The notes below the pieces were generated by a model. That model ran no database searches. It worked only from the letters and a program-made list of their open reading frames with translations, and was not told where the DNA came from. Below are positions 33,161 to 49,774 of a stretch of 64,000 bases of DNA, one piece after another. The translations under genes and the position numbers were made by a program. The stretch covers positions 1-64,000 of the forward strand of contig JANXAZ010000016.1 of the NCBI GenBank assembly GCA_025062095.1, read 5' to 3'. The stretch comes from Geminicoccaceae bacterium (lineage in GTDB: Bacteria > Pseudomonadota > Alphaproteobacteria > Geminicoccales > Geminicoccaceae). How positions within the stretch are numbered: position 1 is the stretch's first letter; each line of letters opens with the position of its first letter.

Positions 33161-34654
33161 TCACGCTCGGGGCTCGGACGACCGTCGGCGCAACAGGAGC
33201 GGGGCGAACAGCACGAGCACGGCGAGGGCCCACAAGACGAGGGCGATCGGGCTGGCGAAGAGGATGCCGAGCTCGCCGCCGCTGATCGCGAGCGCGTTGC
33301 GGAGGTTCGTCTCCGTCACCTTGCCCAGCACGAAGCCCAGGATCACGGGGGCGAGATCGAAGCCGAGCTTGCGCAAGAGATAGCCGAAAATCCCGACCGA
33401 GATCATGAGCACGATCGACAGCGAGCTCGCATAAGTGCTGTACACTCCCAAGAAGGCAAGGGCGAGAATACCCGGCAAGAGAATCCAGTTCGGGATCAGC
33501 AACATCCGCACGAAAATCTGAACGAGCGGCAGGTTGAGGACGAGAAGCAAGATGTTGCCGATGTACATCGAGGCGACGAGGCCGCCCGCGAGTTCCGGCC
33601 GCTCGGTGAAAAGCTGCGGTCCGGGCTGGATGTTGTAGAGCAACAGCGCCCCGAGCATGACCGCGGTCGTCCCGCTGCCCGGCACCCCGAGGGTGAGCAT
33701 GGGCACGAAGGCGCCGCCCGCGGCGGCGTTGTTGGCGGCTTCCGGGGCCGCGAGGCCGCGCGGATCGCCTCTGCCGAAGGTGCCGGCGCGATCGGAGATG
33801 CGCTTTTCCGTCGTGTACGACACGGCGCTCGCCACCGAGGCGCCGGTCCCCGGCAAGACCCCGATGAGAAAACCGATCCCCGTCCCGCGCAGCATGGCCC
33901 CCAGGCACAGGCGCAACGTCGCGAGGCTCGGGAAACCGCGGCCGATGGAGACCGTCTCGAGCCCGCCGCGGTGCTGTCGCTCGAGAAGGACCAGGACCTC
34001 GCTGATCGAGAAGAGCCCGATGACGAGGATGATGAACTCGATTCCGTCGTACAGCTCGGGCTCGCCGAAGGTGAAGCGATAAGCCCCGCTCGTGGGATCG
34101 AGACCGACGGTGCTCAGCGCCAGCCCAAAGGCGGCGCCGATCATCGTCTTGACCGGCTGATCGCCGACCATCGAGGTCAGGGTCGCGAAGGCGAAGATCA
34201 TCAGGACGAAATATTCCGCCGGACCGAAGCCGATGGCCAGTTGTCCGAGAAGGGGCGCGAAGAACGTCAGGGCGAGGACGCTCAACATGCCACCGACGAA
34301 CGAGGCGATGCCGGAAAGGGCGAGGGCCTCCGCTCCGCGTCCGTCGCGCGCCATGGGGTAGCCGTCGAGTGCGGTCATGACGGCCCCGGCGTCGCCCGGC
34401 ACGTTGAGGAGGATCGAGGAGATCCGGCCGCCGTATTCGGCCCCGTAATAGACCCCGGCGAGGAGGATCATCGTGCTCTCGGCCGGCACGCCCAACGTGT
34501 AGGCGAGGGGCAGCAGGAGCGCGATCCCGTTGATGGGACCGATCGCCGGCAAGGCCCCCACGACCGTGCCGAGCAGGCAGCCGAGAAGGCCGAAGAGGAG
34601 ATTGTGCCACTGCAGCGCGACCGCGAAGCCGGTCCACAGATAATCGAGCGACAC
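33161..34654 (-). CDS. tctA: Tripartite tricarboxylate transporter large permease (TctA)
   Basis: 497 residues, GTG start at 34654. About 12 helices; family signatures 'LLGCLLGTVVGALPAIGPINGIALLLP', 'YYGAEYGGRISSILLNVPGD' and the repeated 'FVPMLTLGVPGSGTTAVMLGAL' are clear. Imports carboxylates such as citrate or propionyl-type acids using the ion gradient. 4 nt after tctB. Complete TTT operon tctC-tctB-tctA. Confidence 0.95.
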   Translation of the reverse strand: MSLDYLWTGFAVALQWHNLLFGLLGCLLGTVVGALPAIGPINGIALLLPLAYTLGVPAESTMILLAGVYYGAEYGGRISSILLNVPGDAGAVMTALDGYPMARDGRGAEALALSGIASFVGGMLSVLALTFFAPLLGQLAIGFGPAEYFVLMIFAFATLTSMVGDQPVKTMIGAAFGLALSTVGLDPTSGAYRFTFGEPELYDGIEFIILVIGLFSISEVLVLLERQHRGGLETVSIGRGFPSLATLRLCLGAMLRGTGIGFLIGVLPGTGASVASAVSYTTEKRISDRAGTFGRGDPRGLAAPEAANNAAAGGAFVPMLTLGVPGSGTTAVMLGALLLYNIQPGPQLFTERPELAGGLVASMYIGNILLLVLNLPLVQIFVRMLLIPNWILLPGILALAFLGVYSTYASSLSIVLMISVGIFGYLLRKLGFDLAPVILGFVLGKVTETNLRNALAISGGELGILFASPIALVLWALAVLVLFAPLLLRRRSSEPRA

Positions 34655-34658
34655 GGGC

Positions 34659-35165
34659 TCACGACCCCGTGAACCAGCGGCCCGCGGGCAGGGGGATGCG
34701 CAGGCCGTAAGCGAATACCAGCCACCACAGCACGGCTTGCGCGATGCCGCTCGCGAGCGCCTGGCGGAGCGTGGCGCGGAACATGAGGGCCGCGCCCGTG
34801 CACAGCACGCCCATCGCGATCAGGAAGCCCGCCCGATCGAAGAGCCAAGCGGCGAGATAGGCGAGGGCGACGAGCCCGGCGGTCTGGACGAGGAGGCCGC
34901 CGCGCGGCCAGGGCTCGGCGCCACCGGGCCTGAGAAACCAGGCGAGAGCAAGCAGCGCCAAGAGGATCGCGAGGCCCAGAGGGAAGACGCGAGGGCCGAG
35001 CGGGTCCGAGCTGAAGGCGTATTCGATGCGCGCCGCCGCGAAACCGTACGCGAGCGCGACCAGGAACAACACCAGCGCCGGGAGCCGCTCTCCCCAGCCG
35101 AACCCGTCGCGCGCGCGCACGGGCTCTTCCTCTTCCGCCCGGACCCCGCGGCCCGCGCCGCTCAC
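34659..35165 (-). CDS. tctB: Tripartite tricarboxylate transporter small permease (TctB)
   Basis: 168 residues if the GTG at 35165 is used, which overlaps the tctC stop as GTGA. Four hydrophobic segments: 'LPALVLFLVALAYGFAA', 'VFPLGLAILLALLALAWFL', 'LLVQTAGLVALAYLAAWLF' and 'AQAVLWWLVFAYGL'. 'SDPLGPRVFPLGLA' is the TctB signature near the first periplasmic loop. A later in-frame GTG (PVRARDG) is the alternative start. Confidence 0.9.
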   Translation of the reverse strand: MSGAGRGVRAEEEEPVRARDGFGWGERLPALVLFLVALAYGFAAARIEYAFSSDPLGPRVFPLGLAILLALLALAWFLRPGGAEPWPRGGLLVQTAGLVALAYLAAWLFDRAGFLIAMGVLCTGAALMFRATLRQALASGIAQAVLWWLVFAYGLRIPLPAGRWFTGS

Positions 35166-36121
35166 AACAGTCCGGCTTCCCTGGCGAGTTCGCGGAAGCG
35201 CGCCACGTCGGCTTTGACCTGGCGGTCGAATTCGGCGCCGATCTTGGTGAAGGGGAAGAGCCCCTTGGCCTGGCGCTCGGCCGCGAACTCGGGGGTGGCG
35301 GCGAGCTTGCGCAAGAGCTCGACCCACCAGGTGTAATCGGCGTCCGAGACCTTCGGCCCCATGTAGAAGCCGCGCCAGGTGGTCCAGACGAGATCGAGGC
35401 CCTGCTCGCGGGCCGTGGGCACGTCGGCGAGATCACCGGGCAGGCGCTGTTCGCTCAGGACGGCGAGGACGCGCACTCTGCCCGCCTTGTGGTGGGCTCC
35501 CACTTCCGATGCGTCGCCGGTGCCGATCCGGACGTGGCCACCCAGGAGCGCGGTGAGCACCGCGCCCCCGCCCTCGAGCGCCGCGTACCGCAACCCCTTG
35601 GGATCGATGCCCAAGGATTTGGCGAAGATCGCGGCTTTCATCCAGTCCTGCGAGCCCACCGCACCGGCTCCGCCGAAGGGAAAGGCCGCGGGGTTGGCCT
35701 TGAGCGCCTCGCCCAGTTCTTTGAGCGATTTGAAGGGCTCCTGGGCGTTGACGACGATCACGCCGTGATCGGCGCCGATCGCCGCCAGCCACCGGACCGC
35801 GTTCTCGTCGTGGACGCCGAACTTTTTCTGCGCGAGGAGGAGCGCCGAGCCGGCGGAGGCCGCGACCACGAGGCCGGGATCGGCCGGACGCGTACCCACG
35901 ACGTGGTTGTAGGCCACCGCTCCGACCCCGCCTTCCATGTAGGTCACCGCCACGGGTTGGGGCACGAGCTTGGCGTTCTGGAGCGACAGCCTCAGGAGCT
36001 GACAGGTGATGTCGAAGCCGCCCCCGGGCTTGGCCGGCGCGAGGCACTCGAGCTTTTCGGGTGCGGCCCGCGCCGATGCGGCGAACAGGACGACGAGCGC
36101 GGCTGCGAGCAAAGAACGCAT
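35162..36121 (-). CDS. tctC: Tripartite tricarboxylate transporter substrate-binding protein (TctC/Bug)
   Basis: 319 residues from the ATG at 36121, preceded by GGGGAGG. Signal peptide 'MRSLLAAALVVLFAASARA' then 'KLECLAPAKPGGGFDITCQL', the Bug-family ligand loop normally written 'PGGGxD', and later 'SAGSALLLAQ' and 'FGGAGAVGSQDWMKA'. Binds a carboxylate in the periplasm and delivers it to TctAB. Substrate not predictable. First gene of the operon. Confidence 0.94.
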   Translation of the reverse strand: MRSLLAAALVVLFAASARAAPEKLECLAPAKPGGGFDITCQLLRLSLQNAKLVPQPVAVTYMEGGVGAVAYNHVVGTRPADPGLVVAASAGSALLLAQKKFGVHDENAVRWLAAIGADHGVIVVNAQEPFKSLKELGEALKANPAAFPFGGAGAVGSQDWMKAAIFAKSLGIDPKGLRYAALEGGGAVLTALLGGHVRIGTGDASEVGAHHKAGRVRVLAVLSEQRLPGDLADVPTAREQGLDLVWTTWRGFYMGPKVSDADYTWWVELLRKLAATPEFAAERQAKGLFPFTKIGAEFDRQVKADVARFRELAREAGLL

Positions 36122-36202
36122 GGTCGGCCTCCCCTTTTCCTCCCGCATGCGGGCGCATAGCACCCGTGCGCGGTCGGCGCCAAGGTCGGATGCTCGACCC
36201 TC

Positions 36203-37141: not shown

Positions 37142-39384
37142 GCCGGCTCGACGAAACTGTCGACGACTTTTTTGCGCCCCGCTTTGTCGAAGGCGATCTC
37201 GAGCTTGTCGCCGTCGATCGCCTCGATCCGGCCGTAGCCGAACTTCTCGTGGAAGATGCGTTCGCCGACGCGGAATTTGCGACTGCCGGGCGCGGGACGG
37301 ACGAGGAGGATCTCGGCCTTGCCCTCGAGGAGCGCGTTTGCGGTCGCGCGGCGCGAGCGGAAGCGCGAGGCGCGCGGTCCGTATTCGGGCTCGCCGAAAT
37401 ATTCGCGGTCGGGACGGGCCGCCGGGCTGCGGTGCAACACTTCGATGTGCTCGCGCGGGAGCTCTTCGAGAAAGCGCGAGGGCAGGGTGCTCGTCCACTG
37501 ACCGTAGACCCGCCGGTTGGCGGCGAAGGTCACCACGCAGCGCTTCTTGGCCCGGGTGATGCCCACGTAGGCCAGTCGCCGCTCTTCTTCGAGCGCCCGC
37601 TCTCCGCCTTCTTCGAGAGCACGGGCGTTCGGGAACAGCCCCTCTTCCCAGCCGGCGAGAAAGACGCTGTCGAATTCCAGGCCCTTGGCCCCGTGGAGGG
37701 TCATCACGCTCACCATCTCCGCCTCGGGGTCGGTCGTCGCCTCGGTCACGAGCGCGACGTGCTCCAAGAAAGCCGGCAAGGTGTCGAACTCTTCGAGGCT
37801 CTTGACGAGCTCCTTGAGGTTGTCGAGGCGCCCTTGCGCATCCGCCGAGCGCTCGTTCTGCCACATCTCCACGTAACCCGATTCCTCGAGCACGATTTCG
37901 GCGAGATCGCGCGGTCGCTTCTCGGCGAGCAGCGTCCGCCAGTGATCGAGCTGGTCCAGGAAGCGGGAAAGGGCGCTGCGCGTGCGGGCGGGGAGCTCGT
38001 CGGTGCGCACGAGTTCGCGCGCCGTGCGCAGAAGGCTCGCCTCGCGCCGTCGCGCGAGGGTGCGCAACGTCCTCAAGGAGGTCTCGCCGATGCCGCGGCG
38101 CGGGAGGTTGACGATGCGCTCGAAGGCGAGATCGTCGTCGGGCGAGGCGACGAGCCGCAGATAGGCGATCGCGTCGCGGATCTCCTGGCGCTCGTAGAAA
38201 CGCGGACCGCCCACCACGCGATAGGGCAGCCCCATCTGGATGAAGCGCTCCTCGAAGGCGCGGGTCTGGAAGCCCGCGCGCACGAGCACGGCGATCGAGG
38301 AGAGCCTCTCGCCCGCGCGCTGCAAGGCCTCGATCTCCTCCCCGATCCAGCGCGCCTCCTCTTCGTCGTCCCACAGCCCCGCCACGCGAACGGGTTCGCC
38401 CATGGCTCCTTCGGTCCACAGCGTCTTGCCGTGGCGCGCCCGGTTGTGGGCGATGAGCCCCGTCGCCGCGCCCAGGATGTGACCGGTGGAGCGGTAGTTG
38501 CGCTCGAGCCTGACGATCCGGGCACCGGGAAAGTCCTGCTCGAAGCGCAGGATGTTGCCGACGTCCGCGCCGCGCCAGGAATAGATCGACTGATCGTCGT
38601 CGCCGACACAGGTGATGTTGCCGTGCCGCTGCGCCAACAGCTTGAGCCAGAGATATTGGGCGACGTTGGTGTCCTGGTATTCGTCGACCAGGATCGCCCG
38701 GAAGCGTTCCTGGTAGCGTGCCAAGACGTCGGGATGACGGTTGAAGATCTCGAGCCCGTGCAGCAACAGATCGCCGAAGTCGCATGCGTTGAGCACGCGC
38801 AGCCGCTCCTGGTAGGCGGCGTAGAGCGCGCGCGCCTCGCCCATGGCGAAATCCGAAACCTCGCACTCGGGCACCGCCTCGGGCGTCCAACCCTTGTCCT
38901 TCCAGCGCTCGACGAGCGCGAGGAGAGCCCGTGCCGGCCAGCGGCGCTCGTCGAGGTCCGCCGCCTGGATCACCTGTTTGAGGAGGCGGAGCTGATCGTC
39001 GGTATCGAGGATCGTGAACGTGGGTTCGAGGCCGACGAGCTCGGCGTGCGCGCGCAACAGGCGCACGCCCATGGCGTGGAAGGTGCCCAGCCACATGCCC
39101 TCGACCGAGCGACCGATCATCCGCTCGACCCGCTCGGCCATCTCGCGCGCCGCCTTGTTCGTGAAGGTGACGGCGAAGATCTCGCCCGCCCGCGCCCGGC
39201 CGCTCACGAGGAAATGGGCGAGGCGCGCGGTGAGCACCCGGGTCTTGCCGGTTCCCGCTCCGGCGAGCACGAGGAGCGGCCCGTCGGGAGCGGTCACGGC
39301 GGCGCGCTGCTCCGGGTTGAGGCCGCAAAGATGCGCGAGCTCGCCTTCGGCGTCGCGCGGAAGACGGCGGTGGGCCGGGTCCAT
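37138..39384 (-). CDS. uvrD: UvrD/PcrA-type ATP-dependent DNA helicase
   Basis: 748 residues from ATG at 39384 (MDPAHRRLPRD); a GTG 15 nt upstream is equally open and neither has a strong ribosome site. SF1A motifs in order: 'LAGAGTGKTRVLTAR' (I), 'FTNKAAREMAERV' (Ia), 'LVDEYQDTN' (II), 'CVGDDDQSIYSWRGAD' (III), 'LERNYRSTGHIL' (IV), 'VMTLHGAKGLEFDSVFLAG' (V) and 'RLAYVGITRAKKR' (VI). C-terminus ends in a Tudor-like 'GERIFHEKFGYGRIEAIDGDKLE', the UvrD/PcrA RNA-polymerase-binding tail. Acts in excision repair and removal of stalled complexes. Slightly longer than typical PcrA. Confidence 0.96.
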   Translation of the reverse strand: MDPAHRRLPRDAEGELAHLCGLNPEQRAAVTAPDGPLLVLAGAGTGKTRVLTARLAHFLVSGRARAGEIFAVTFTNKAAREMAERVERMIGRSVEGMWLGTFHAMGVRLLRAHAELVGLEPTFTILDTDDQLRLLKQVIQAADLDERRWPARALLALVERWKDKGWTPEAVPECEVSDFAMGEARALYAAYQERLRVLNACDFGDLLLHGLEIFNRHPDVLARYQERFRAILVDEYQDTNVAQYLWLKLLAQRHGNITCVGDDDQSIYSWRGADVGNILRFEQDFPGARIVRLERNYRSTGHILGAATGLIAHNRARHGKTLWTEGAMGEPVRVAGLWDDEEEARWIGEEIEALQRAGERLSSIAVLVRAGFQTRAFEERFIQMGLPYRVVGGPRFYERQEIRDAIAYLRLVASPDDDLAFERIVNLPRRGIGETSLRTLRTLARRREASLLRTARELVRTDELPARTRSALSRFLDQLDHWRTLLAEKRPRDLAEIVLEESGYVEMWQNERSADAQGRLDNLKELVKSLEEFDTLPAFLEHVALVTEATTDPEAEMVSVMTLHGAKGLEFDSVFLAGWEEGLFPNARALEEGGERALEEERRLAYVGITRAKKRCVVTFAANRRVYGQWTSTLPSRFLEELPREHIEVLHRSPAARPDREYFGEPEYGPRASRFRSRRATANALLEGKAEILLVRPAPGSRKFRVGERIFHEKFGYGRIEAIDGDKLEIAFDKAGRKKVVDSFVEPA

Positions 39385-39536
39385 GCGGCGGAAACGCACC
39401 CCATCGCTGCGATCGCGCGCAAGCTAGTCGCTCCGGGCGCCGAGGGCCACCCCGTCGGGGTGCGACTTGACAGGCCCGGCGCGCGACCCCGAGGGTGGAC
39501 GCGCGGACATCGCATGCCCTCGCGGATGGGATCGTC

Positions 39537-40271
39537 ATGGGATACGATGGCGCGCTGTTCGTCGTCACCGGCGCCGCCGGGGGGATCGGCCGGGAGACGG
39601 TCAAACTGCTGCTCGCCAAGGACGCCCGGCTGCTCCTGATCGACCGCGACGAGGGGCGGCTGCGGGCCCTGGAGAGCGAGCTCGCGGCCGGCAAGCGGAT
39701 CACCGCCGTCGTTTCCGACCTCGCCACCCCCGCGGCCTGCGAGCAGGCCCTCGATGCGGTCGACGGCCCGGTCTACGCCTTCGTCCATCTGGCCGGGCTG
39801 TTCGAGCCCGAGGACTTCGCTTCCGACGCGCGGGCGGTGTGGGACCGGGTGCAGGCGGCCAATCTCACCAATGCCTTCGACATGGCGGTGGCGGTGAGCC
39901 GGCGGTTCGACGAGGAGCGGGTCTGCCGGATCGTGCTCGTGAGCTCCTTGGCCTTCCGCCGCGGGTCGTTCGACCACGTGAGCTACAGCGCCGCCAAGGG
40001 CGGCATCGTCGGGCTCGTGCGGGCGCTGTCCCGGCGCTTGGCGCCCCACGTGCTCGTCAACGGCATCGCCCCGGGCCACATCGAGACCGGGATGCCCGCC
40101 CACATCTGGGCCGATCGCACGCGCAGCGAGCGCATGCTCGCCGAGATCCCGCTGCGCCGCCGCGGCCATCCGCGCGAGGTGGCCACGGTCATCGACTTCC
40201 TGTGCGGCGACGGGGCGACCTACATCACCGGCCAGGTCATCAACGTCGACGGAGGGGTGGTCAACAGCTGA
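39537..40271 (+). CDS. Short-chain dehydrogenase/reductase (SDR)
   Basis: 244 residues from ATG at 39537, preceded by GGATGGGA; a start 42 nt earlier is less likely. Classical SDR: 'VVTGAAGGIGRE' cofactor loop, Asp after beta-2 ('LLIDRDEG', suggesting NAD), catalytic Ser in 'VLVSSLAF', 'YSAAKGG' (Tyr-x3-Lys) and C-terminal 'YITGQVINVDGG'. The C-terminus resembles FabG-like enzymes. Divergent from uvrD and convergent with the dimethylformamidase-like genes; substrate unknown. Confidence 0.9.
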   Translation: MGYDGALFVVTGAAGGIGRETVKLLLAKDARLLLIDRDEGRLRALESELAAGKRITAVVSDLATPAACEQALDAVDGPVYAFVHLAGLFEPEDFASDARAVWDRVQAANLTNAFDMAVAVSRRFDEERVCRIVLVSSLAFRRGSFDHVSYSAAKGGIVGLVRALSRRLAPHVLVNGIAPGHIETGMPAHIWADRTRSERMLAEIPLRRRGHPREVATVIDFLCGDGATYITGQVINVDGGVVNS

Positions 40272-40292: not shown

Positions 40293-42545
40293 TCATCCCC
40301 GCTCCCCGGGCATCGCGAACGGGGCGGGATCGCGGAACCGGCGCAGGACGTTCGTGGTCAGCCGGGCGAGATCGTTGTCGAAGCCGTTCCAGGGAAGAGC
40401 CGTCGCAAAGGCGATCGAGCCCGCCGACCACACCGCTCCGCCCCCGGGCGTCTCGAAAAAGGTGATCTCGGCGCGGATCGCGGGGTTGAGGGTGGCATCC
40501 GAGGCCCCGTGGGGCACGAGCACCTCTTCGCTCACGAGCTCGTAAACATTCGAGTGGTTCTCCGAGCGGGCGACCACGAGCGCATGCGCCGGCGTTCCGA
40601 GGGCGGGATCGGTGGCGTCGATCTCGAGCCCCGCGGCACCACCGTAGAGGATCCCGTCGCGACCGAGGATCTCGCTTTCCACGCCTTCGAACATCCACGC
40701 CGCGCGGGGATCGCGCGCGGCTTCCGTGCGCCGATAATACGAGCATTTGTCGAATCCCTGGGAGATGAAGCCGACGCCCACGAGCCGCTGCGGCGGCCGG
40801 GCGTTGCGACGCCACAAGCCGCCGAATTCGCCGGTGAAGCCGTGGTAGTATTCTCCGGGTTCGGCGTCCCAGGTGCGCACCCCGCCCTCGGCGCGGCGGA
40901 CCTCGATCACCCCCGGCCGCGTCGGATGGTGCGCGATCCGCCAATAAAACCCGTTGCCTCCCATGTACATGAGCCGGCCGCCGCGCGAAAGATAAGCTTC
41001 GAGAGCGTCGAGCATTTCTTTACTGTGATATTCGGGGTGCGAGCCCGTGACGATCACGCGATAAGGCGCGAGGAGGTCCACGCCTTCCTGGTGCAGCTGT
41101 TCGTCGGTGATCACGTCGTAATCGCCGTCGACGTGCTCCAACCAGTCGATGATGAACAGATCCAAGTTGAAGTTCCAGTGGCGCCCCGTCGGTCGGAAGT
41201 TCTGGACCGGACGATGCCGGCTCGAATAGCATACCCCGCTGCCGTCACGGTGCCGATCGTAAGTCGAAAGGCCCATCTCCGGATGCTCGAGAAACACGAT
41301 GTCCGTGCGATCGAGCACGAGAAGCCGGCCGTGATAGAGCTCGGTGGCGAGCGAGGCGAAACGGCTTCTGTGGTTGAGATAAGCGATATAGGTCGCGGTC
41401 GGAGCGAGAAAGGCGGTGTGCGAACGCGCCGTGCCCCGGGGCGGAGAGACGAAGAAGGGAACCCAGAACTCGCCGTCCCCCGCGCGCAGATGGAGCGCGT
41501 ACACTCCCGAGCGCCACTGCGCCGGCACCTCGAGCTCGAGGTCCGGCTCCCATCGCGCGTCCACGAGATCGTCGTCGTGGAAGTGGATGGCGGCGTAATG
41601 GCGGGGATCGCGCGTCCAGTCCTGGACCGAGCCGTCCCAGCGGGCACCGCGCACGGCACGGGTCGGAAGATTGACGGTGACCCCGTCGAGCCTATGGGGG
41701 CCCAGATCACGGATCGTTTCGCTCGGGATCTCGGCCGCGAAGTCCCAGGCCGCGATCAGCCGCGTCGCGAGACGCGCGGGAAGGGGCTCGGCGAAGAGCT
41801 CGGCCACGGTCTCCGGCGAACAGGCGTCGGAGACCAGGCGCGGTGCCTCGAGCCGACCGTTGAAATGGAAGGCGGTGGCGATCCCGCCCCACGCCGAGGG
41901 ACCGCGCGCCGGCCCGGCCTGCGCCGCGGCGAACAGAAAGGGACCGGGGCCGCGGATCGGCCCGAGCCTCGCCTCGACCCGCCCCGAGCTCGGGCGATCG
42001 AAGTCGAAACCGTGGGCCGAGAGCGGTTCCGCGCGCACTTCGAGGCTGCCGGCGGCGCGATCGAAGACCAGGCTCGCCCGATACCAGCGGCGCGCGCCGA
42101 GGGGCCGGTCCGCGCGCGCCGCGACCTCCTCTTCGCCGTCCGCGATCCGCCCTTCGAGCCGCCCCTGTTCGTCCAGGAACAGGCCGTAGCCGGTGCGGGA
42201 CGCCACGCACCAGGTCCCGGCGAGCATCTGTCGCCCCCCGGCGGGCGTGGTCGGCCACACGAGCAGGGCGAGGGCGAAGCTCCCCTCGGGATGGAGCGCG
42301 GGATGCGCGGGCACGGCGGCGAAGGAGCCGATCGGAATGGATTGCCAACGCAAGGGATGGCTTCCGTTCACCGGCGCCTCGATCGGCTCGGGCGCGAAAG
42401 GCGAGGCGAGCCGGCCGGCCCGCGGCTGTCGCAGGCGGACGATGCGGGCATCGAAGCGCTCCGCCCCCTTCCCGCTCACCATGAAGCGGATGCGATCGCC
42501 GGGACGGCAGCTCCAGCGATCGGCGTACGCCAAAAGCACGCTCAC
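40293..42545 (-). CDS. N,N-dimethylformamidase large-subunit-like protein
   Basis: 750 residues from a GTG at 42545. N-terminal beta-rich part (1-115), a LamG/concanavalin-like segment (~115-260), then the DMFase beta-subunit C-terminal domain. Candidate mononuclear-iron ligands are Tyr386/Tyr389 in 'TATYIAY', Tyr429 in 'GLSTYDRHRDGSG' and Glu505 in 'TGSHPEYHS'. As I recall, Paracoccus DMFase uses two Tyr and a Glu, with the same His-Pro-Glu-Tyr run. 'NFNLDLFIIDWLE' and 'YMGGNGFYWR' are also family-like. Cytosolic amidohydrolase; the real amide substrate may differ. 31 nt after the small partner gene. Confidence 0.83.
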   Translation of the reverse strand: MSVLLAYADRWSCRPGDRIRFMVSGKGAERFDARIVRLRQPRAGRLASPFAPEPIEAPVNGSHPLRWQSIPIGSFAAVPAHPALHPEGSFALALLVWPTTPAGGRQMLAGTWCVASRTGYGLFLDEQGRLEGRIADGEEEVAARADRPLGARRWYRASLVFDRAAGSLEVRAEPLSAHGFDFDRPSSGRVEARLGPIRGPGPFLFAAAQAGPARGPSAWGGIATAFHFNGRLEAPRLVSDACSPETVAELFAEPLPARLATRLIAAWDFAAEIPSETIRDLGPHRLDGVTVNLPTRAVRGARWDGSVQDWTRDPRHYAAIHFHDDDLVDARWEPDLELEVPAQWRSGVYALHLRAGDGEFWVPFFVSPPRGTARSHTAFLAPTATYIAYLNHRSRFASLATELYHGRLLVLDRTDIVFLEHPEMGLSTYDRHRDGSGVCYSSRHRPVQNFRPTGRHWNFNLDLFIIDWLEHVDGDYDVITDEQLHQEGVDLLAPYRVIVTGSHPEYHSKEMLDALEAYLSRGGRLMYMGGNGFYWRIAHHPTRPGVIEVRRAEGGVRTWDAEPGEYYHGFTGEFGGLWRRNARPPQRLVGVGFISQGFDKCSYYRRTEAARDPRAAWMFEGVESEILGRDGILYGGAAGLEIDATDPALGTPAHALVVARSENHSNVYELVSEEVLVPHGASDATLNPAIRAEITFFETPGGGAVWSAGSIAFATALPWNGFDNDLARLTTNVLRRFRDPAPFAMPGERG

Positions 42546-42576
42546 GCGCGTTCCTCCGTTCGGATCGCGGCCGGGC

Positions 42577-42891
42577 TCAGTCGATCGGCAACTCTTCGCC
42601 CGCGAGCTCGCGCCAGCGGAGTTTGAAGACGTACCATTCCGCCTCGCGCAGATCGGTGAACACGACCTCGGTCGGCCGGGGCGGGCTCTTGGCACCGGGC
42701 TCGAGGAAGGCGAGACGCCAGCGTTCGTCGTCCTCTTCGACGACGAGGCAGGGAAACGGCCGATCCGAGGGCCGTCGCATCAAATGGAGGAGATACTGCA
42801 GATCCGGGCTGTGCTCGCCCAAGGGGTCGGCTTTGAACTCGCGTGCGAGGTCGAGCCGGGTCTTGTCGAAGCGGTACACGTCCGCCTCCAC
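42577..42891 (-). CDS. Small protein, candidate alpha subunit of dimethylformamidase-like enzyme
   Basis: 104 residues from GTG at 42891 (GGAG 8 nt upstream); a GTG 12 nt downstream and a TTG at 42936 are alternatives. Compact and acidic/aromatic with no membrane helix. 'FKADPLGEHSPDLQYLLHLMR' and 'REAEWYVFKLRWREL' echo the layout of the ~130-residue DMFase small subunit, as far as I recall that sequence. It lies directly upstream of the large subunit in the same direction, the order seen in dmfA1-dmfA2. The function call rests mainly on size, order and weak pattern. Confidence 0.6.
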   Translation of the reverse strand: MEADVYRFDKTRLDLAREFKADPLGEHSPDLQYLLHLMRRPSDRPFPCLVVEEDDERWRLAFLEPGAKSPPRPTEVVFTDLREAEWYVFKLRWRELAGEELPID

Positions 42892-42999: not shown

Positions 43000-45654
43000 T
43001 CAGACGAGCCGCCCGTGGCACTGCTTGTACTTCTTCCCCGAACCGCAGGGGCACGGGGCGTTGCGCGGCACCTTGCCCCAGGTCCGGGGATCGGCGGGGT
43101 CGATGCCGTCGCCGCCCTCGGCCACGGCCATGGCGCGGGCGCGCACGGTGGGCGTGACGGACACCGGTTCCGGCTCGGGCGGCGCGAGGCGGATCTCCAA
43201 ATGCGAGAGCACCTGGGTGGTGGTGAGCCGCAGCTGGTGGAGCATGCTTTCGAAGAGCGCGAAGGCCTCGCGCTTGTACTCGTTCAGAGGATCGCGCTGA
43301 CCGTAGCCCCGCAGGTGGATCCCCTGCCGCAGATGGTCCAGGTGCAGAAGATGCTCTTTCCAGAGATGGTCCAGGATTTGCAAAAGTAGGCTCTTTTCCG
43401 CCATGCGCATCACGGGCTCGCCATAGGTGACCACTTTCTGGGCCATCTTGGCATCGGAGGCGTCCTGGATGCGCCGGCGGATCTCCTCTTCTGCGATGCC
43501 TTCTTCTTTGACCCACTCCTCGATCGGCAGATCGAGGGCGAGGTAGCGTTGGACGTCGGCCTTGAGGCCAGCGGCGTTCCACTCTTCGGGATAGGCTTTC
43601 TCGGGGATGTGCTTGGCGACGAGCTCCTCGATGACCTGCTCGCGCATGTCCTTGATCATGTCGGACACGTCATCGGCCGCCAGGATCTCGTAGCGCTGCT
43701 CGTAGATGACCTTGCGCTGATCGTTCATTACGTCGTCGAAGCGCAAGAGATTTTTGCGGATCTCGAAGTTGCGGGCTTCGACCTTCTGTTGAGCCTTCTC
43801 GAGCGCCTTGTTGATCCACTTGTGGACGATCGCCTCGCCTTCTTGGAGGCCGAGCTTCTGCAACATCCCGTCCATCCGATCGGATCCGAAGATCCGCATC
43901 AGATCGTCCTCGAGGCTCAAGAAGAACTTCGAGCGACCGGGGTCGCCCTGACGGCCGGAACGCCCCCGCAGCTGATTGTCGATCCGCCGGCTCTCGTGCC
44001 GTTCGGTCCCGATCACGTAGAGCCCGCCCAGGGCCTTCACCTTCTCGCGTTCGGCGAGCACTTCTTCGATGATTTTCTTCGCTCGCGGATCGTCTTTGGG
44101 AACGTCGGGGCCGAGCTCTTGGCGGATGCGCATCTCGGCGTTGCCGCCGAGCTGGATGTCGGTGCCGCGACCGGCCATGTTCGTGGCGATCGTCACCGCG
44201 CCGAGCCGTCCCGCCTGGGCGATGATCATCGCCTCCTGCTCGTGGTAGCGGGCGTTCAAGACCTGATGGGGAATGCCGCGCTTCTTGAGCATCTCGGAGA
44301 GAAGCTCGGATTTCTCGATCGAGACGGTGCCGACGAGCACCGGCTGACCGCGCCGATGGGCCTCTTCGATCTCGCGGCAGATGGCCTCGTACTTCTCCCG
44401 CGCGGTGCGATAGACCTCGTCGTCCTCGTCCTTGCGGATCATCGGCAGGTGCGTCGGGATCTCGACCACCTCGAGTTTGTAGATCTCGGCGAATTCGGCC
44501 GCTTCCGTCGCCGCCGTGCCGGTCATGCCGGCGAGCTTCTCGTAGAGCCGGAAATAATTCTGGAAGGTGATCGAGGCGAGCGTCTGGTTTTCGGCCTGGA
44601 TCGGCACTCCCTCTTTGGCCTCGAGAGCCTGGTGCAACCCGTCCGAGTAGCGCCGGCCGTGCATCATGCGGCCGGTGAACTCGTCGATGATGATGACCTG
44701 ATTGTCCTTGACGATGTAGTCCACGTCGCGGCGGAAGAGGTGATGCGCCCGCAGTGCCTGCTGGACGTGGTGCAGGATCGTCACGTTTTCGATATCGTAA
44801 AGATCGGGCGCCTTGAGCAGACCGAGCTCGCTCAGTTTCTGCTGCACCCGCTCCTGACCCTTTTCGGTCAGGGTCACGGTACGCTGCTTTTCGTCCTTCT
44901 CCCAATCGTCCGGTTCGAGCGTGGGGATGATGGCGTCGATCACCCGGTACAGATGCGAGCTGTCCTCGCTCGGCCCGCTGATGATGAGAGGCGTGCGCGC
45001 CTCGTCGATGAGGATGCTGTCGACCTCGTCGACGATCGCATAATAATGGCCCCGCTGCACCATGGCATCGAGGCTGTGACGCATGTTGTCGCGCAGGTAA
45101 TCGAATCCGAGCTCGTTGTTGGTGGCGTAGGTGATGTCGCAGGCGTAAGCCTTGCGCCGTGCCTGATCGTCCATCAACGGTACGATCACGCCCACCGATA
45201 GGCCGAGCATCTCGTAGATCGGTCCCATCCAGGCGGCGTCGCGGCGGGCGAGGTAGTCGTTGACGGTGACGATGTGCACGCCTCTTCCGGTGAGCGCGTT
45301 GAGATAGGCGGGAAGGGTGGCCACCAGGGTCTTGCCCTCGCCCGTCTTCATCTCGGCGATGCCGCTGCGATGGAGCACGATGCCGCCGATCAGCTGTACG
45401 TCGAAATGGCGCTGCCCGAGCGTGCGCTTGGCCGCCTCGCGAACGGTGGCGAAGGCGTCGACCAAGAGGTCGTCGAGGGTCTCGCCCTTGGCCAGGCGCT
45501 CTTTGAACCAGTCCGTGCGGGCCCGCAGCTCGGCATCCGAGAGCCGCTCGAGCTCCGGCTCTTTCGCGTTGATGAGCTCGACCGTCTTGCGGTGGGCCTT
45601 GATGATCCGGTCGTTAGCCGAGCCGAACAACCGGCGCGCCAGGGATGCGAACAT
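43000..45654 (-). CDS. secA: Preprotein translocase ATPase SecA
   Basis: 884 residues, full length. NBD1 with '[14 protein letters not shown]', DEAD-type '[20 protein letters not shown]', the preprotein cross-linking domain, NBD2 with '[16 protein letters not shown]' and '[17 protein letters not shown]'. A C-terminal zinc/SecB site '[13 protein letters not shown]' is intact. Drives export through SecYEG. Upstream is a candidate promoter; no operon partner. Confidence 0.98.
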
Positions 45655-45749: not shown

Positions 45750-47138
45750 TCAGCCGGCGTGGCGGAGATGGAAGCTCTTGGGGCGCGTGAGATGCTCGAA
45801 GGCGAGCCGCGAGAGCGCCACGCCGCGGCCGCTGTCCTTGACGCCCACCCAGGCGAGTTCGGGATCGAGGTAATCGCAGCGGTTCATGAACACGGTCCCC
45901 GTCTCGAGCCGCTCGCCGATGCGGATCGCGGCTTCGAGATCACGCGTGAAGACGGCCGCGGTCAGGCCGTAGCTGCTGTCGTTCATGAGCGCGATCGCCT
46001 CTTCGTCCGAGCGCACCTTCATGACGCCCACGATCGGGGCGAAGCTCTCCTCGCGCATCACCCGCATGCCGTGATCGACATCGACGAGACATTGCGGTGC
46101 CATGTAGGCCGACCCCGGAGCCTCGCGCGGGAAGCGGCGGGGATCGATGAGCGCCCGCGCCCCCGCGCGTACCGCCTCCGCCACTTGCGCGCGGGCGAAA
46201 TCCGCGGCCTGCGGCCGCACCATCGGCCCGAGGGTGGTCGAGGGCAGAAGCGGATCGTCGAGGACGTAGCGCGAGGCGAGCTCGACATAGCCCTGCACGA
46301 AGTCCTCGAAGAGCTTCTCGTGCACGTAGATGCGCTCGATGGCGCAGCAGGACTGTCCGGCGTTGAAGCAGGCGCCGTCGACGAGCGTCTCGACCGCCCG
46401 CTCGAGGTCGGCATCGGCCCGCACATAGGCCGGATCCTTGCCCCCGAGCTCGAGCGCGAGACCACAGAAGCTCTCGCCCGCCGCCCGCTGCACGGCCCGG
46501 CCGCCGCGCACCGAGCCCGTGAACACCGCGTGGTCGACGAGCCCTTCGGCGAGAAGCGCGGCCGTGAGCTCGTGGTCCATGTGCAGATGCTGGAACACGC
46601 CTTCCGGCAGCCCGGCCGCGTCCATCGCTTCCTGGAAGCGCTCGGCGCACAGCGGCGTCTGATGGGAGTGCTTGAGGAGCACGCAATTCCCCGCCGCGAG
46701 CGCCGGCACGATCGCGTTGACGGCGGTCAGATAGGGATAGTTCCAGGGCGCGACGACGAGCACGAGCCCCAGGGGCTCGCGCCGCATGAAGCGGGTGAAA
46801 CCGGGCTTGTCGGGCACGCGCACGGTTTCGAGCGCTTCCGGAGCCAGGGCGAGCATGGTGCGCGCCCGCTCTTCGAGCCCGCGCAGCTCGCCCGGGCTGT
46901 GGGCGATCGGCCGCCCCATCTGAAGCGTGATCTCGCGCGCGATCTCCTCGCGCCGGGCCAGCATGTGGTCGATCGCCCGGTGCAAGAGCTCCACCCGTTC
47001 TTCCACCGGCCGCACGCGCCACGCGGGAAGCGCGCGCCGCGCCCGGTGCACCGCGGCTTCCACCGCGGCGCGGTCGGCGAGCGGGCGCTCGACCACGATC
47101 CGGCCGTCGATCGGGGACACGGTGCGCAAGACGCTCAT
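45750..47138 (-). CDS. Aldehyde dehydrogenase family protein
   Basis: 462 residues. NAD(P) binding 'VVAPWNYPYLTAVNAIVPALAAGN', active-site Glu in 'LALELGGKDPAYV', nucleophilic Cys in 'NAGQSCCAIERIYV' and 'EESFAPIVGVMKV' are intact. The N-terminus 'SPIDGRIVVERPLAD' and the C-terminal 'DSGRGVALSRLAFEHLTRPKS' place it in the broad succinate-semialdehyde/betaine-aldehyde-like ALDHs without a clear subfamily. Divergent from the TehA-like channel gene; the shared gap carries an AT-rich palindrome. Confidence 0.93.
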   Translation of the reverse strand: MSVLRTVSPIDGRIVVERPLADRAAVEAAVHRARRALPAWRVRPVEERVELLHRAIDHMLARREEIAREITLQMGRPIAHSPGELRGLEERARTMLALAPEALETVRVPDKPGFTRFMRREPLGLVLVVAPWNYPYLTAVNAIVPALAAGNCVLLKHSHQTPLCAERFQEAMDAAGLPEGVFQHLHMDHELTAALLAEGLVDHAVFTGSVRGGRAVQRAAGESFCGLALELGGKDPAYVRADADLERAVETLVDGACFNAGQSCCAIERIYVHEKLFEDFVQGYVELASRYVLDDPLLPSTTLGPMVRPQAADFARAQVAEAVRAGARALIDPRRFPREAPGSAYMAPQCLVDVDHGMRVMREESFAPIVGVMKVRSDEEAIALMNDSSYGLTAAVFTRDLEAAIRIGERLETGTVFMNRCDYLDPELAWVGVKDSGRGVALSRLAFEHLTRPKSFHLRHAG

Positions 47139-47224
47139 GTCGGCTCCTCCTCGCTCGCGGATGCGGGTCTACTGCGCGCCGTCGCCGCGGGCGAGGGCCC
47201 TCGGTGCCACGGGACAGCACATTA

Positions 47225-47249
47225 GACGGACCTTATATAAACGTCCGTC
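47225..47249. promoter_or_regulatory. AT-cored palindrome in divergent promoter region
   Basis: GACGGAC and GTCCGTC, perfect 7-bp arms, flank an 11-nt AT-rich core (CTTATATAAAC) that stands out in this GC-rich sequence. The core contains TATAAA (47236-47241), a good -10 box for the channel gene at 47287, with GGGACA 19 bp upstream as a possible -35. The layout is that of a dimeric repressor (TetR-like) operator covering a promoter. Confidence 0.6.
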
Positions 47250-47286
47250 GGCGTCCGAGATCGCCGACGATCGCGGGAGGACGAGA

Positions 47287-48273
47287 ATGCAGGCAGCGAA
47301 CCGAACGGCCCGACCGAGCGCACTCGAGGGGCTCGCCCACCTGCCGGTGGGCGTGTTCGCGACCGTGATGGGGATGGCCGGTCTCACCCTGGCCACCGAG
47401 CGGATGGCGCACGGCCTTCCCGCCCTCGCCCCGCTCGCGTTCGTCTCGATGTTCCTCACGGCGCTCCTCTTCCTCGCCCTGATCGGCGTTTACGGGCTCA
47501 AGTTCGTGCATCATCGCGAGGCGGTGCTCGCCGAGTGGCGGCATCCCGTGCGGCTGGCGTTCTTCCCGGCGATCACGATCGGCCTTCTCCTCGTCGCCAC
47601 CGCGCTCGCCCCGCGCGTCCCCGCCGTCGCCGAGCCCCTCTGGCTCGCGGGGGCGCTCGCGCATCTCGTCCTCATGCTCGCGGTGGTGAAGGCCTGGATC
47701 GAGATGCAGCATTTCGAGCCGCCGCATCTCAACCCGGCCTGGTTCATCCCGGCGGTGGGAAACGTGCTCGTGCCGATCGCGGGCGTGCCTTTCGGCTGGG
47801 TCGAGTTGTCCTGGTTCTTCTTCGGGGTCGGGCTGTTGTTCTGGCTCGTGCTCTTGACGCTCGTGTTCAACCGCTTGATTTTCCACCAACCCTTGCCCGC
47901 GCGGCTGTCGCCCACTTTCTGCATCCTGATCGCCCCGCCCGCGGTGGCCTTTCTCGCCTGGGTCAGGCTCGCGGGGGAAGTCGGTGCCTTCGGCCGCGTC
48001 CTCTTCGCCGGGGCGGTGCTCTTTTTCCTTCTCCTGCTCGTCCAGGCACCCAAGCTTCTGCGCCTGCCTTGGGCGCTGAGCTTCTGGGCCTATTCGTTCC
48101 CCCTCGCGGCCTTCACCCTCGCCACTTCGCTCGCCGCCGAGCGCCTCGCCCAGCCCCTTCTTTCGGTGGCGAGCTGGGTTCTCTACGCGCTTCTCGTGCT
48201 CGTCATCGGCGCCCTCGCCGTCCGCACCGTCCGAGGCGCGCTCGCGGGCGAACTCTTCCGGCCGGAAGGGTGA
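47287..48273 (+). CDS. SLAC1/TehA-family anion channel-like membrane protein
   Basis: 328 residues from ATG at 47287 after GGGAGGACGAGA. About ten evenly spaced helices with short loops. The opening 'LAHLPVGVFATVMGMAGLTLA' and the mid-protein 'HLNPAWFIPAVGNVLVPIAG' match the TehA/SLAC1 signature (bacterial 'LxxxPxxxFxxVMGxxGL'). Members include tellurite-resistance TehA and plant SLAC1 anion channels. Ion specificity not predictable; inner membrane. Confidence 0.9.
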   Translation: MQAANRTARPSALEGLAHLPVGVFATVMGMAGLTLATERMAHGLPALAPLAFVSMFLTALLFLALIGVYGLKFVHHREAVLAEWRHPVRLAFFPAITIGLLLVATALAPRVPAVAEPLWLAGALAHLVLMLAVVKAWIEMQHFEPPHLNPAWFIPAVGNVLVPIAGVPFGWVELSWFFFGVGLLFWLVLLTLVFNRLIFHQPLPARLSPTFCILIAPPAVAFLAWVRLAGEVGAFGRVLFAGAVLFFLLLLVQAPKLLRLPWALSFWAYSFPLAAFTLATSLAAERLAQPLLSVASWVLYALLVLVIGALAVRTVRGALAGELFRPEG

Positions 48274-48340
48274 ACGTGCGGCCGTCTTGCCGGCCGCGCC
48301 TCCGCCGCTATGGTCGGAGGCCGCGAAGGGAGGGCAGGGG

Positions 48341-49774
48341 ATGCTGCACAAGAACCTGATCGGCGGCGAGTGGGTCGAGGGCGTGGGGGTGACCAGGAAC
48401 ATCAACCCCTCGAACACCGACGACGTCGTGGGCGAATACGCCCAGGCCGACGCCGCCCAGGTCGAGGCCGCGATCGCCGAGGCGCGGGCCGCCTTCGCCT
48501 CCTGGTCGGCGACCCCGGTCGAAGCGCGCGCCGACATGCTGGACGCGATCGGCAACGAGATCCTCGCCCGCAAAGAAGAGCTCGGGCGCCTGCTCTCCCG
48601 CGAAGAGGGCAAGCCGCTCGCCGACGGGATCGGCGAGGTCGTCCGCGCCGGCCGGATCTTCAAATTCTTCGCCGCCGAGTGCCTGCGCCTTGCCGGCGAG
48701 ACGATCCCCTCCACCCGCCCCGGCATCCAGGTCGAGATCACCCGCGAACCCGTGGGCGTCGTGGGCCTGATCACCCCCTGGAACTTCCCGGCCGCGATCC
48801 CGGCCTGGAAGATGGCCCCGGCCCTCGCGTACGGGAACACGGTGGTCTTGAAGCCGGCCGAGCTCTGCCCGGGCTCGGCCTGGGCGATCGTCGAGATCTG
48901 CGCGCGCAACCTGCCCAAAGGCGTCGTCAATCTGGTCATGGGCAAGGGCTCGGTGGTGGGCGAGGCGCTCGCCTCTTCCCCGCACCTCGATGCCCTGAGC
49001 TTCACGGGCTCGGTCGAAGTCGGCCGACACCTCGCCGAAGTCTGTGCCAAGACGATGAAGAAGTGCCAGCTCGAGATGGGCGGCAAGAACCCCCTCGTGG
49101 TGCTGGATGACGCCGATCTCGAGGTCGCGGTCAATTGCGCGATCCAGGGCGCCTTCTATCAGACGGGCCAGCGCTGCACGGCCTCCTCGCGCCTCGTCGT
49201 CACCGAGGCCATCCACGATCGGTTCGTGAGCGCGATGATCGAGGCGATGGTCAAGCTCGTGGTCGACGACGCCTTGAAGCCCGGGACCCAGATCGGGCCG
49301 GTGGTCGACCAGCGCCAGCTCGACCAGGACCTCATGTACATCGAGATCGGCAAGCAGGAGGGGGCGCGGCTCGCCTGCGGCGGCGAGCTCCTCACCCGCG
49401 CCACTCCCGGCTTCTACTTGCAGCCCGCGCTGTTCACCGACACCACACCGGAGATGCGGATCAACCGCGAGGAGATCTTCGGGCCCGTGGCCTCGGTGAT
49501 CCGGGTCAAGGACTACGAGGAAGCCCTGGCGGTGGCCAACGACACGCCTTACGGCCTGTCTTCGGGCATCTGCACGCGGTCCTTGAAGTACGCGCAGCAC
49601 TTCAAGCGCCACGCCCAGGCCGGATTGGTCATGGTCAACCTGCCCACCGCCGGCGTCGACTACCACGTGCCCTTCGGCGGGCGCAAAGCGAGCTCCTACG
49701 GACCGCGCGAGCAGGGGCGGTACGCGCTCGAGTTCTACACGACGGTGAAGACGGCGTACGTCCTGCCCGTCTGA
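48341..49774 (+). CDS. Alpha-ketoglutaric semialdehyde dehydrogenase-like ALDH
   Basis: 477 residues from ATG at 48341 with GGGAGGGCAGGGG just upstream. 'GLITPWNFPAAIPAWKMAPALAYGN', active Glu 'QLEMGGKNPLVVL' and Cys 'QTGQRCTASSRLVV' are intact. The C-terminal 'AGVDYHVPFGGRKASSYGPREQG' is characteristic of ketoglutarate-semialdehyde (2,5-dioxovalerate) dehydrogenases, which finish the oxidative breakdown of pentoses, hexaric acids and hydroxyproline to 2-oxoglutarate. 31 nt ahead of a complete TRAP transporter, implying that the imported acid feeds this step. Confidence 0.9.
   Translation: MLHKNLIGGEWVEGVGVTRNINPSNTDDVVGEYAQADAAQVEAAIAEARAAFASWSATPVEARADMLDAIGNEILARKEELGRLLSREEGKPLADGIGEVVRAGRIFKFFAAECLRLAGETIPSTRPGIQVEITREPVGVVGLITPWNFPAAIPAWKMAPALAYGNTVVLKPAELCPGSAWAIVEICARNLPKGVVNLVMGKGSVVGEALASSPHLDALSFTGSVEVGRHLAEVCAKTMKKCQLEMGGKNPLVVLDDADLEVAVNCAIQGAFYQTGQRCTASSRLVVTEAIHDRFVSAMIEAMVKLVVDDALKPGTQIGPVVDQRQLDQDLMYIEIGKQEGARLACGGELLTRATPGFYLQPALFTDTTPEMRINREEIFGPVASVIRVKDYEEALAVANDTPYGLSSGICTRSLKYAQHFKRHAQAGLVMVNLPTAGVDYHVPFGGRKASSYGPREQGRYALEFYTTVKTAYVLPV

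Follow-up and report, generated by a model that had tools for sequence, protein, structure and literature searches.

Two adjacent genes of a Geminicoccaceae bacterium encode a probable two-subunit amidohydrolase of the dimethylformamidase family

Two adjacent genes in the 64,000-nucleotide stretch of Geminicoccaceae DNA analysed here (hereafter, the window) very probably encode a two-subunit amidohydrolase of the dimethylformamidase (DMFase) family, with a predicted Fe(III) site and, probably, a small amide other than N,N-dimethylformamide (DMF) as its substrate. This reading draws on sequence homology and fold prediction for the two chains, on six conserved active-site residues, on the gene order, on a site shared within the genus and on the joint absence of both genes from one relative; from these we infer the metal identity, quaternary structure, catalysis and substrate of the window enzyme.

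On the minus strand, the order of genes is secA, a small open reading frame (ORF) and a large ORF, followed by a convergent, plus-strand SDR gene located 21 nt off the large ORF. The small gene lies upstream of the large one on the same strand, separated from it by 31 nt. The features of the locus are as follows.

39495..40271, plus strand: SDR dehydrogenase, the convergent neighbour, judged to lie outside the system
40293..42545, minus strand: large subunit, a DMFase-family amidohydrolase of 750 aa with a GTG start (phmmer, Pfam and predicted model)
42553..42557, minus strand: GGAGG, Shine-Dalgarno-like, 7 nt before the large-subunit GTG 42545 (read from the sequence)
42577..42879, minus strand: small subunit, most likely 100 aa from GTG 42879; the 104-aa form would start at GTG 42891
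42885..42889, minus strand: GGAGG, Shine-Dalgarno-like, 5 nt before the small-subunit GTG 42879 (read from the sequence)
43000..45654, minus strand: secA, the upstream neighbour, judged to lie outside the system; SecA domains were found in its genus counterpart at locus L038

Between positions 39000 and 44000, no RNA family scored above its gathering threshold. Neither the promoter-like sites (zero) nor the terminator-like sites (one, just after secA) exceeded the counts in shuffled sequence.

That the large protein resembles DMFase had been proposed in an earlier note on this DNA, and the proposal held. A phmmer search of the PDB returned five strong, distinct sequences, all with E < 1e-140, the sixth row being a chance match (E 0.48). 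Three of the five are large-subunit sequences of the N,N-dimethylformamidase of Paracoccus sp. strain DMF (PDB 6lvb-6lve, 6lvv, 7w8j; PMC7686228), one wild-type and two mutant; the other two are forms of an N-acetyl-(R)-beta-phenylalanine acylase (PDB 8huy, 8i59, 8i5a). The match to the DMFase chain 6lvb_A extends end to end (E 3.9e-143; residues 5-742) at 36% identity, and that to the acylase 8huy (E 7.7e-142) has 38% identity. Pfam family DMFA2_C (PF20254) scored 316 bits, far over its cut-off of 27, covering profile positions 1-373 of 374, while no NCBIfam family matched the large subunit at E up to 1. An AlphaFold2 model built from a 72-sequence alignment (pLDDT 94.5) had DMFase chains as its first structural matches, with a TM score of 0.95 to 6lvb_A and, upon global superposition, Z 56.4 and an rmsd of 1.6 over 737 residues. 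The acylase shares the large-chain fold as well (Z 51.8 over 701 residues). Whole-chain superposition on 6lvb_A, taken as one unit, places Ig-like, pentraxin and alpha/beta/alpha domains in the one predicted chain.

The earlier note had also singled out candidate Tyr/Tyr/Glu iron ligands and a His-Pro-Glu-Tyr run. Both are present: Y399, Y440, E521, H519, N547 and E657 of DMFase align with Y389, Y429, E505, H503, N531 and E641 of the window, and the HPEY run aligns with H519-Y522 of the Paracoccus enzyme. The superposition on 6lvb_A is global, and the ligand residues were paired by sequence alignment. Their codons, with conservation in a 95-sequence alignment that includes two solved structures, are listed below.

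41379..41381, minus strand: Y389, iron ligand by alignment (Y399 in DMFase); Tyr in 95 of 95
41259..41261, minus strand: Y429, iron ligand by alignment (Y440 in DMFase); Tyr in 95 of 95
41031..41039, minus strand: H503-P504-E505, equivalents of the catalytic H519 and the iron ligand E521; His and Glu in 95 of 95
40953..40955, minus strand: N531, equivalent of the oxyanion residue N547; Asn in 94 of 95, Asp in one (a pAMI5 paralogue)
40623..40625, minus strand: E641, equivalent of the proposed general base E657; Glu in 94 of 95, a gap in one

In the Paracoccus enzyme, the mutants Y440A, E521A, H519A, E657A and N547A are inactive (PMC7686228). The acylase carries the same six residues and, given that they are kept in 94 or 95 of the 95 sequences, we take them as markers of the family rather than of DMF as a substrate. 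By analogy, the window enzyme would probably assemble as alpha2-beta2, with Y389, Y429 and E505 coordinating a single Fe(III) that acts as a Lewis acid. H503 and the base E641 would assist the attack of a metal-bound water on the amide carbonyl, N531 would stabilise the oxyanion, and cleavage would yield a carboxylate plus an amine. The small subunit is predicted to pack on the catalytic domain and shape the entrance of the site.

This small subunit was less readily recognised. As a single query, the small ORF gave no PDB match at E up to 10 and no Pfam or NCBIfam family. An iterative profile seeded with the window protein, however, identified the domain in 87 of 98 sequences (some of the 98 being the same locus fetched twice), and a 59-sequence profile—the window and 58 genome loci, no plasmid—matched the DMFase small subunit 6lvb_B with E 2.9e-13, as did a 20-sequence profile including four plasmid small subunits with E 1.2e-19. 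A weak profile match to ribosomal protein S15 (E 0.04), absent among the structural matches listed, was taken as chance. The predicted model of the small subunit (pLDDT 93) again had 6lvb_B as its first match (E 5.4e-5; TM 0.69), with Z 10.4-11.4 against two wild-type DMFase chains and 9.6 against a mutant, the next unrelated chain reaching 3.6. Profile and model thus support the assignment of the protein as a true DMFase-type small subunit; its predicted fold is not an unrelated one.

The earlier note's small gene is therefore real, upstream, in the right order and of DMFase type, but its length is probably 100 aa rather than 104. We favour GTG 42879 over GTG 42891 because of the GGAGG 5 nt before it and because of the start positions in four genus relatives: the small ORFs of G003, G004 and G005 have their earliest possible start at the residue of GTG 42879, and that of G001, though open further upstream, has a TTG preceded by GGAGG at this residue. 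A GGAG 8 nt before GTG 42891 makes the 104-aa form a possible, if less favoured, alternative. The longest possible ORF, of 119 aa from TTG 42936, would add 19 residues to the 100-aa form. The window subunit is shorter than that of Paracoccus DMFase (about 100 vs 132 aa): residues 1-97 of the model cover 6lvb_B 27-130, the match begins at residue 25-27 of the DMFase chains, and the modelled subunit has no counterpart of their N-terminal extension, which spans roughly residues 1-26 in 6lvb_B. In DMFase, this extension bears a helix wedged between two large subunits (PMC7686228).

Across the family, in the best 80 of at least 575 confirmed loci, the small domain adjoins the large gene or is fused to it in 68. 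Fused chains occur in three of these 80 (L059, L074 and L098), requiring two changes on the tree. In the remaining 12 of the best 80, no small domain lies beside the large gene, although one locus (L110) has it elsewhere and another (L109) offers only 358 bases upstream. Six of the 12 group with the acylase and lack a small gene in the fetched stretch (L083, L089, L099, L107, L112 and L109, the one with 358 upstream bases); the acylase PDB entries likewise show none, in contrast to the window. The other five (L055, L062, L087, L114 and L116) are scattered on the tree. The partner may therefore not be universal.

Within the genus, the gene is present in four of the five relatives searched. G003, G004 and G005 share the arrangement of the window, with secA upstream and the SDR gene downstream in the same orientation, 0.5-1.7 kb away; in G005 this region is part of one 3.76-Mb contig. 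The G001 gene also comes after secA and is interrupted by the contig end. G002, the closest relative by SecA (96.5%), lacks the gene: its secA and SDR genes are 528 bp apart, the SDR is 95% identical to that of the window, and tblastn found no trace of either subunit (best E 1.0). The joint absence of both subunits is most simply a loss and, with the closest relative lacking the pair, its role is dispensable.

The same genome bears on the SDR gene, which the earlier note had read as a hint at a natural amide substrate. For the window, we rejected the SDR as a pathway partner, since it is convergent with the pair and since G002 keeps it without either subunit, meaning that its presence is independent of theirs. 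SDRs belonging to a single sequence cluster occur in the fetched stretch of at least 20 of 84 loci—a lower bound, with other SDRs falling outside the cluster—and four of these are the window and its genus. An SDR is the first downstream gene in four of 74 loci and the first upstream gene in two of 73. One Variovorax plasmid has a fabG-type gene with a one-base overlap at the end of the large gene, and at locus L033 an SDR lies beyond transporter genes. SDRs are abundant, though: each of 17 relatives of the window genome has 12-64 matches.

Nor did other neighbours point to a substrate: the 73 upstream and 74 downstream genes scanned are very mixed. The commonest families of first upstream genes have four members each, class III aminotransferases standing level with HAD hydrolases; downstream, phosphoglucose isomerase (five) and SDR (four) lead among the 74 genes scanned of 75 called. 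Neighbour gene calls are heuristic, and the downstream ORF of L038 was judged spurious and dropped from the scan. At L033 and L046, two closer relatives, the pair adjoins ABC transporter genes.

Both genes evolve under purifying selection, which marks them as real genes and not chance ORFs. Among four genus members, dN/dS ranges from 0.12 to 0.28 for the large subunit and from 0.06 to 0.17 for the small one, the window large subunit being higher (0.24-0.28) than its siblings among themselves (0.12-0.15). The large subunit is 71% identical to its genus siblings and less conserved than the neighbouring genes of the window, which is also farther from its siblings in secA and the SDR and less so in two aldehyde dehydrogenases. 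The N-terminal 258 residues diverge fastest, a pattern common to G001. We read the extra divergence as divergence of the lineage. The raised dN/dS, along with the absence of both genes from the closest relative, would fit a copy that is decaying or catalytically dead; yet the frames are open, the six residues intact, dN/dS well below 1 and the model of high confidence, so that we regard decay as very improbable.

A phylogeny of the large subunit was built from 86 rows with IQ-TREE (quick search; support by SH-aLRT only, no bootstrap; midpoint root); in it, the letter make-up of the window sequence was flagged as unusual. The window nests with three genomes of its genus (SH-aLRT 99), then within clades of 8 (100), 14 (99) and 15 rows (97), the last being all alphaproteobacterial by record title or kinship. 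The nearest named record in the tree, among the matches listed, is a Geminicoccaceae MAG (L038). The DMFase chain 6lvb_A falls into a separate 11-row clade (SH-aLRT 99) outside which the window lies, and the acylase sits across a split from the window with support of 100.

DMFase homologues are not rare in the class. PF20254 occurs in 55 of 289 sampled genomes (the window's own included), with up to six matches per genome, and 17 of 60 relatives match the window large protein. The aligned family spans proteobacteria to haloarchaea and includes the solved acylase. Among 72,556 plasmid records, 80 match the large protein, all below 60% identity; phage records gave no match, nor did viral contigs in a single-sequence search sensitive to close relatives only. 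The earlier note's remark that few such enzymes are characterised agrees with the material found, though homologues are common, and our literature search, conducted mostly outside subscription journals, returned no title on natural substrates of the family.

Residue differences from DMFase bear on which amide the window enzyme may cleave. In DMFase, F693, contributed by the neighbouring subunit, constricts the pocket and explains the poor cleavage of larger amides (PMC7686228). This position is Val in the window and Phe in 12 of 86 rows. The window further keeps G529 (93 of 95 sequences), W578 (92 of 95) and P585 (90 of 95), where DMFase, with A545, F593 and T600, and one to four other rows depart. 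These differences and the separate clade make it probable that the enzyme acts in nature on a small N-substituted amide, though not on DMF. The earlier note's suggestion of a natural amide instead of a xenobiotic is likewise probable. It is backed by the genomic site common to the genus, by the distinct clade and by the changed pocket residue, not by the SDR, an argument that fails.

A strict dimethylformamidase, converting mainly DMF, N-methylformamide or formamide to dimethylamine, methylamine or ammonia plus formate, would fit the presence of a small subunit and the fact that no metal-binding or catalytic residue known from Paracoccus DMFase has been lost. The six residues, however, are family-wide and common to an acylase, and clade and F693 position both separate the window from DMFase. 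The genome encodes one HODM_asu-like protein (PF11927), a family linked to oxidative N-demethylation, which would suit a strict dimethylformamidase too; but PF11927, found in eight of 14 relatives, does not track the amidase, G002 having PF11927 without the amidase and G004 the reverse. We recognised no partner genes by eye beside the PF11927 protein, and a search limited to formamidases of the FmdA_AmdA kind found none in the genome. Finally, a review (PMC11573777) describes AceAB, the acetamiprid amidase of Pigmentiphaga sp. D-2, as a two-subunit relative of DMFase that acts on acetamiprid and has no activity on DMF or its analogues. Taken together, we consider a strict dimethylformamidase unlikely.

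A function near that of the N-acetyl-(R)-beta-phenylalanine acylase, on N-acyl amino acids or related amino compounds, is harder to dismiss. Seven domain-III positions are invariant across the 15 rows of the window clade and hold a different, likewise invariant residue in four DMFase-clade rows; at three of them (P494, R551 and F570) the window has the majority residue of the acylase group, and at four it disagrees. D-amino-acid dehydrogenase genes occur in the neighbourhood of two homologues on plasmids, and one of these two has alanine racemase and amino-acid ABC transporter genes nearby as well; class III aminotransferases are the first upstream gene in four of 73 loci. Against this, the known acylase lies across a strongly supported split and its PDB entries list a large chain only, the window pair has no conserved amino-acid gene next to it, and neighbours in the family at large are very mixed. 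An acylase thus makes a tentative alternative, plausible but not the one we would choose. A further reading, at a little short of an even chance, is a third functional class: a chromosomal alphaproteobacterial two-Tyr-one-Glu iron amidase with a short small subunit and an undescribed natural amide, of which DMFase would be a side branch with a modified pocket.

The layout of the window pair recurs in uncharacterised homologues on the Roseomonas marmotae plasmid p1318-6 (46%) and on pBVIE01 of Burkholderia vietnamiensis G4 (43%), each with a small gene followed by a large one. These plasmid copies lie beside ABC transporter genes, and in Burkholderia also amino-acid genes, whereas the window pair is chromosomal and lies between secA and the SDR gene. 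With Paracoccus DMFase, the window enzyme shares the large-chain and small-subunit folds, the two-Tyr-one-Glu ligands and the H/N/E catalytic residues.

When first described, the DMFase iron site, formed by two tyrosinates and a carboxylate, was considered unique (PMC7686228). Since the six site residues are kept in 94 or 95 of 95 sequences, the site is probably common equipment of a large amidase family with few described natural substrates. Automatic 'dimethylformamidase' labels should hence not be taken as DMF degradation. The window pair is an ordinary member of this large family—one usable example, not a special one.

Among the loci fetched for comparison, the two subunits of the amidase are joined in a single reading frame at three places, and at two others a small-subunit-like stretch closes a permease-type ORF:

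L059:6614-9202, small and large subunit fused into one chain
L074:4142-6706, small and large subunit fused into one chain
L098:328-2958, small and large subunit fused into one chain
L027:4278-5933, long permease-type ORF ending in an in-frame small-subunit-like stretch
L017:35-1477, long permease-type ORF ending in an in-frame small-subunit-like stretch

The three fused chains measure 854-876 aa, and their fused state requires two changes on the tree. The permease-type ORFs may be fusions, or the small-subunit-like part may have its own start inside the frame with no intervening stop. A small-subunit gene was absent from the fetched stretch at six further loci (L083, L089, L099, L107, L112 and L109, the last with only 358 bases upstream of the large gene), whose large subunits cluster with the beta-phenylalanine acylase in the tree.

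The oxyanion position holds Asn in 94 of the 95 aligned sequences and Asp in the pAMI5 paralogue of Paracoccus aminophilus (L021:6004-8427). Amidase homologues of two family members (L007 and L010) each contain an in-frame stop (TAA, TGA), being either pseudogenes or sequence errors. The public MAG titles of L042, L043, L052, L063 and L108 (Asaia bogorensis, Rhizobium sp. Q54, Klebsiella pneumoniae) seem doubtful because of their proteins' placement.

Further features concern the closest relative (G002), the window and its own genome:

G002:C57:48335-48862 (in L143), SDR-secA interval of the closest relative, 528 bp
L147:6926-7921 (G000:C22), lone HODM_asu-like gene (PF11927) in the window's genome
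window 45750-49774, pair of aldehyde dehydrogenase genes close to secA, one on each strand
window 33161-36163, solute receptor gene of the TctC type (PF03401) together with putative TctB and TctA genes

No similarity to the amidase genes was detectable in the 528-bp interval. Around the lone PF11927 gene, apparent ABC transporter and CoA-transferase genes were seen by eye only. Both aldehyde dehydrogenases were found again in the genus, the plus-strand one being closest to alpha-ketoglutaric semialdehyde dehydrogenase, below the curated cut-off. Window 33161-36163 probably encodes a tripartite tricarboxylate transporter, of which the Pfam search covered TctC.
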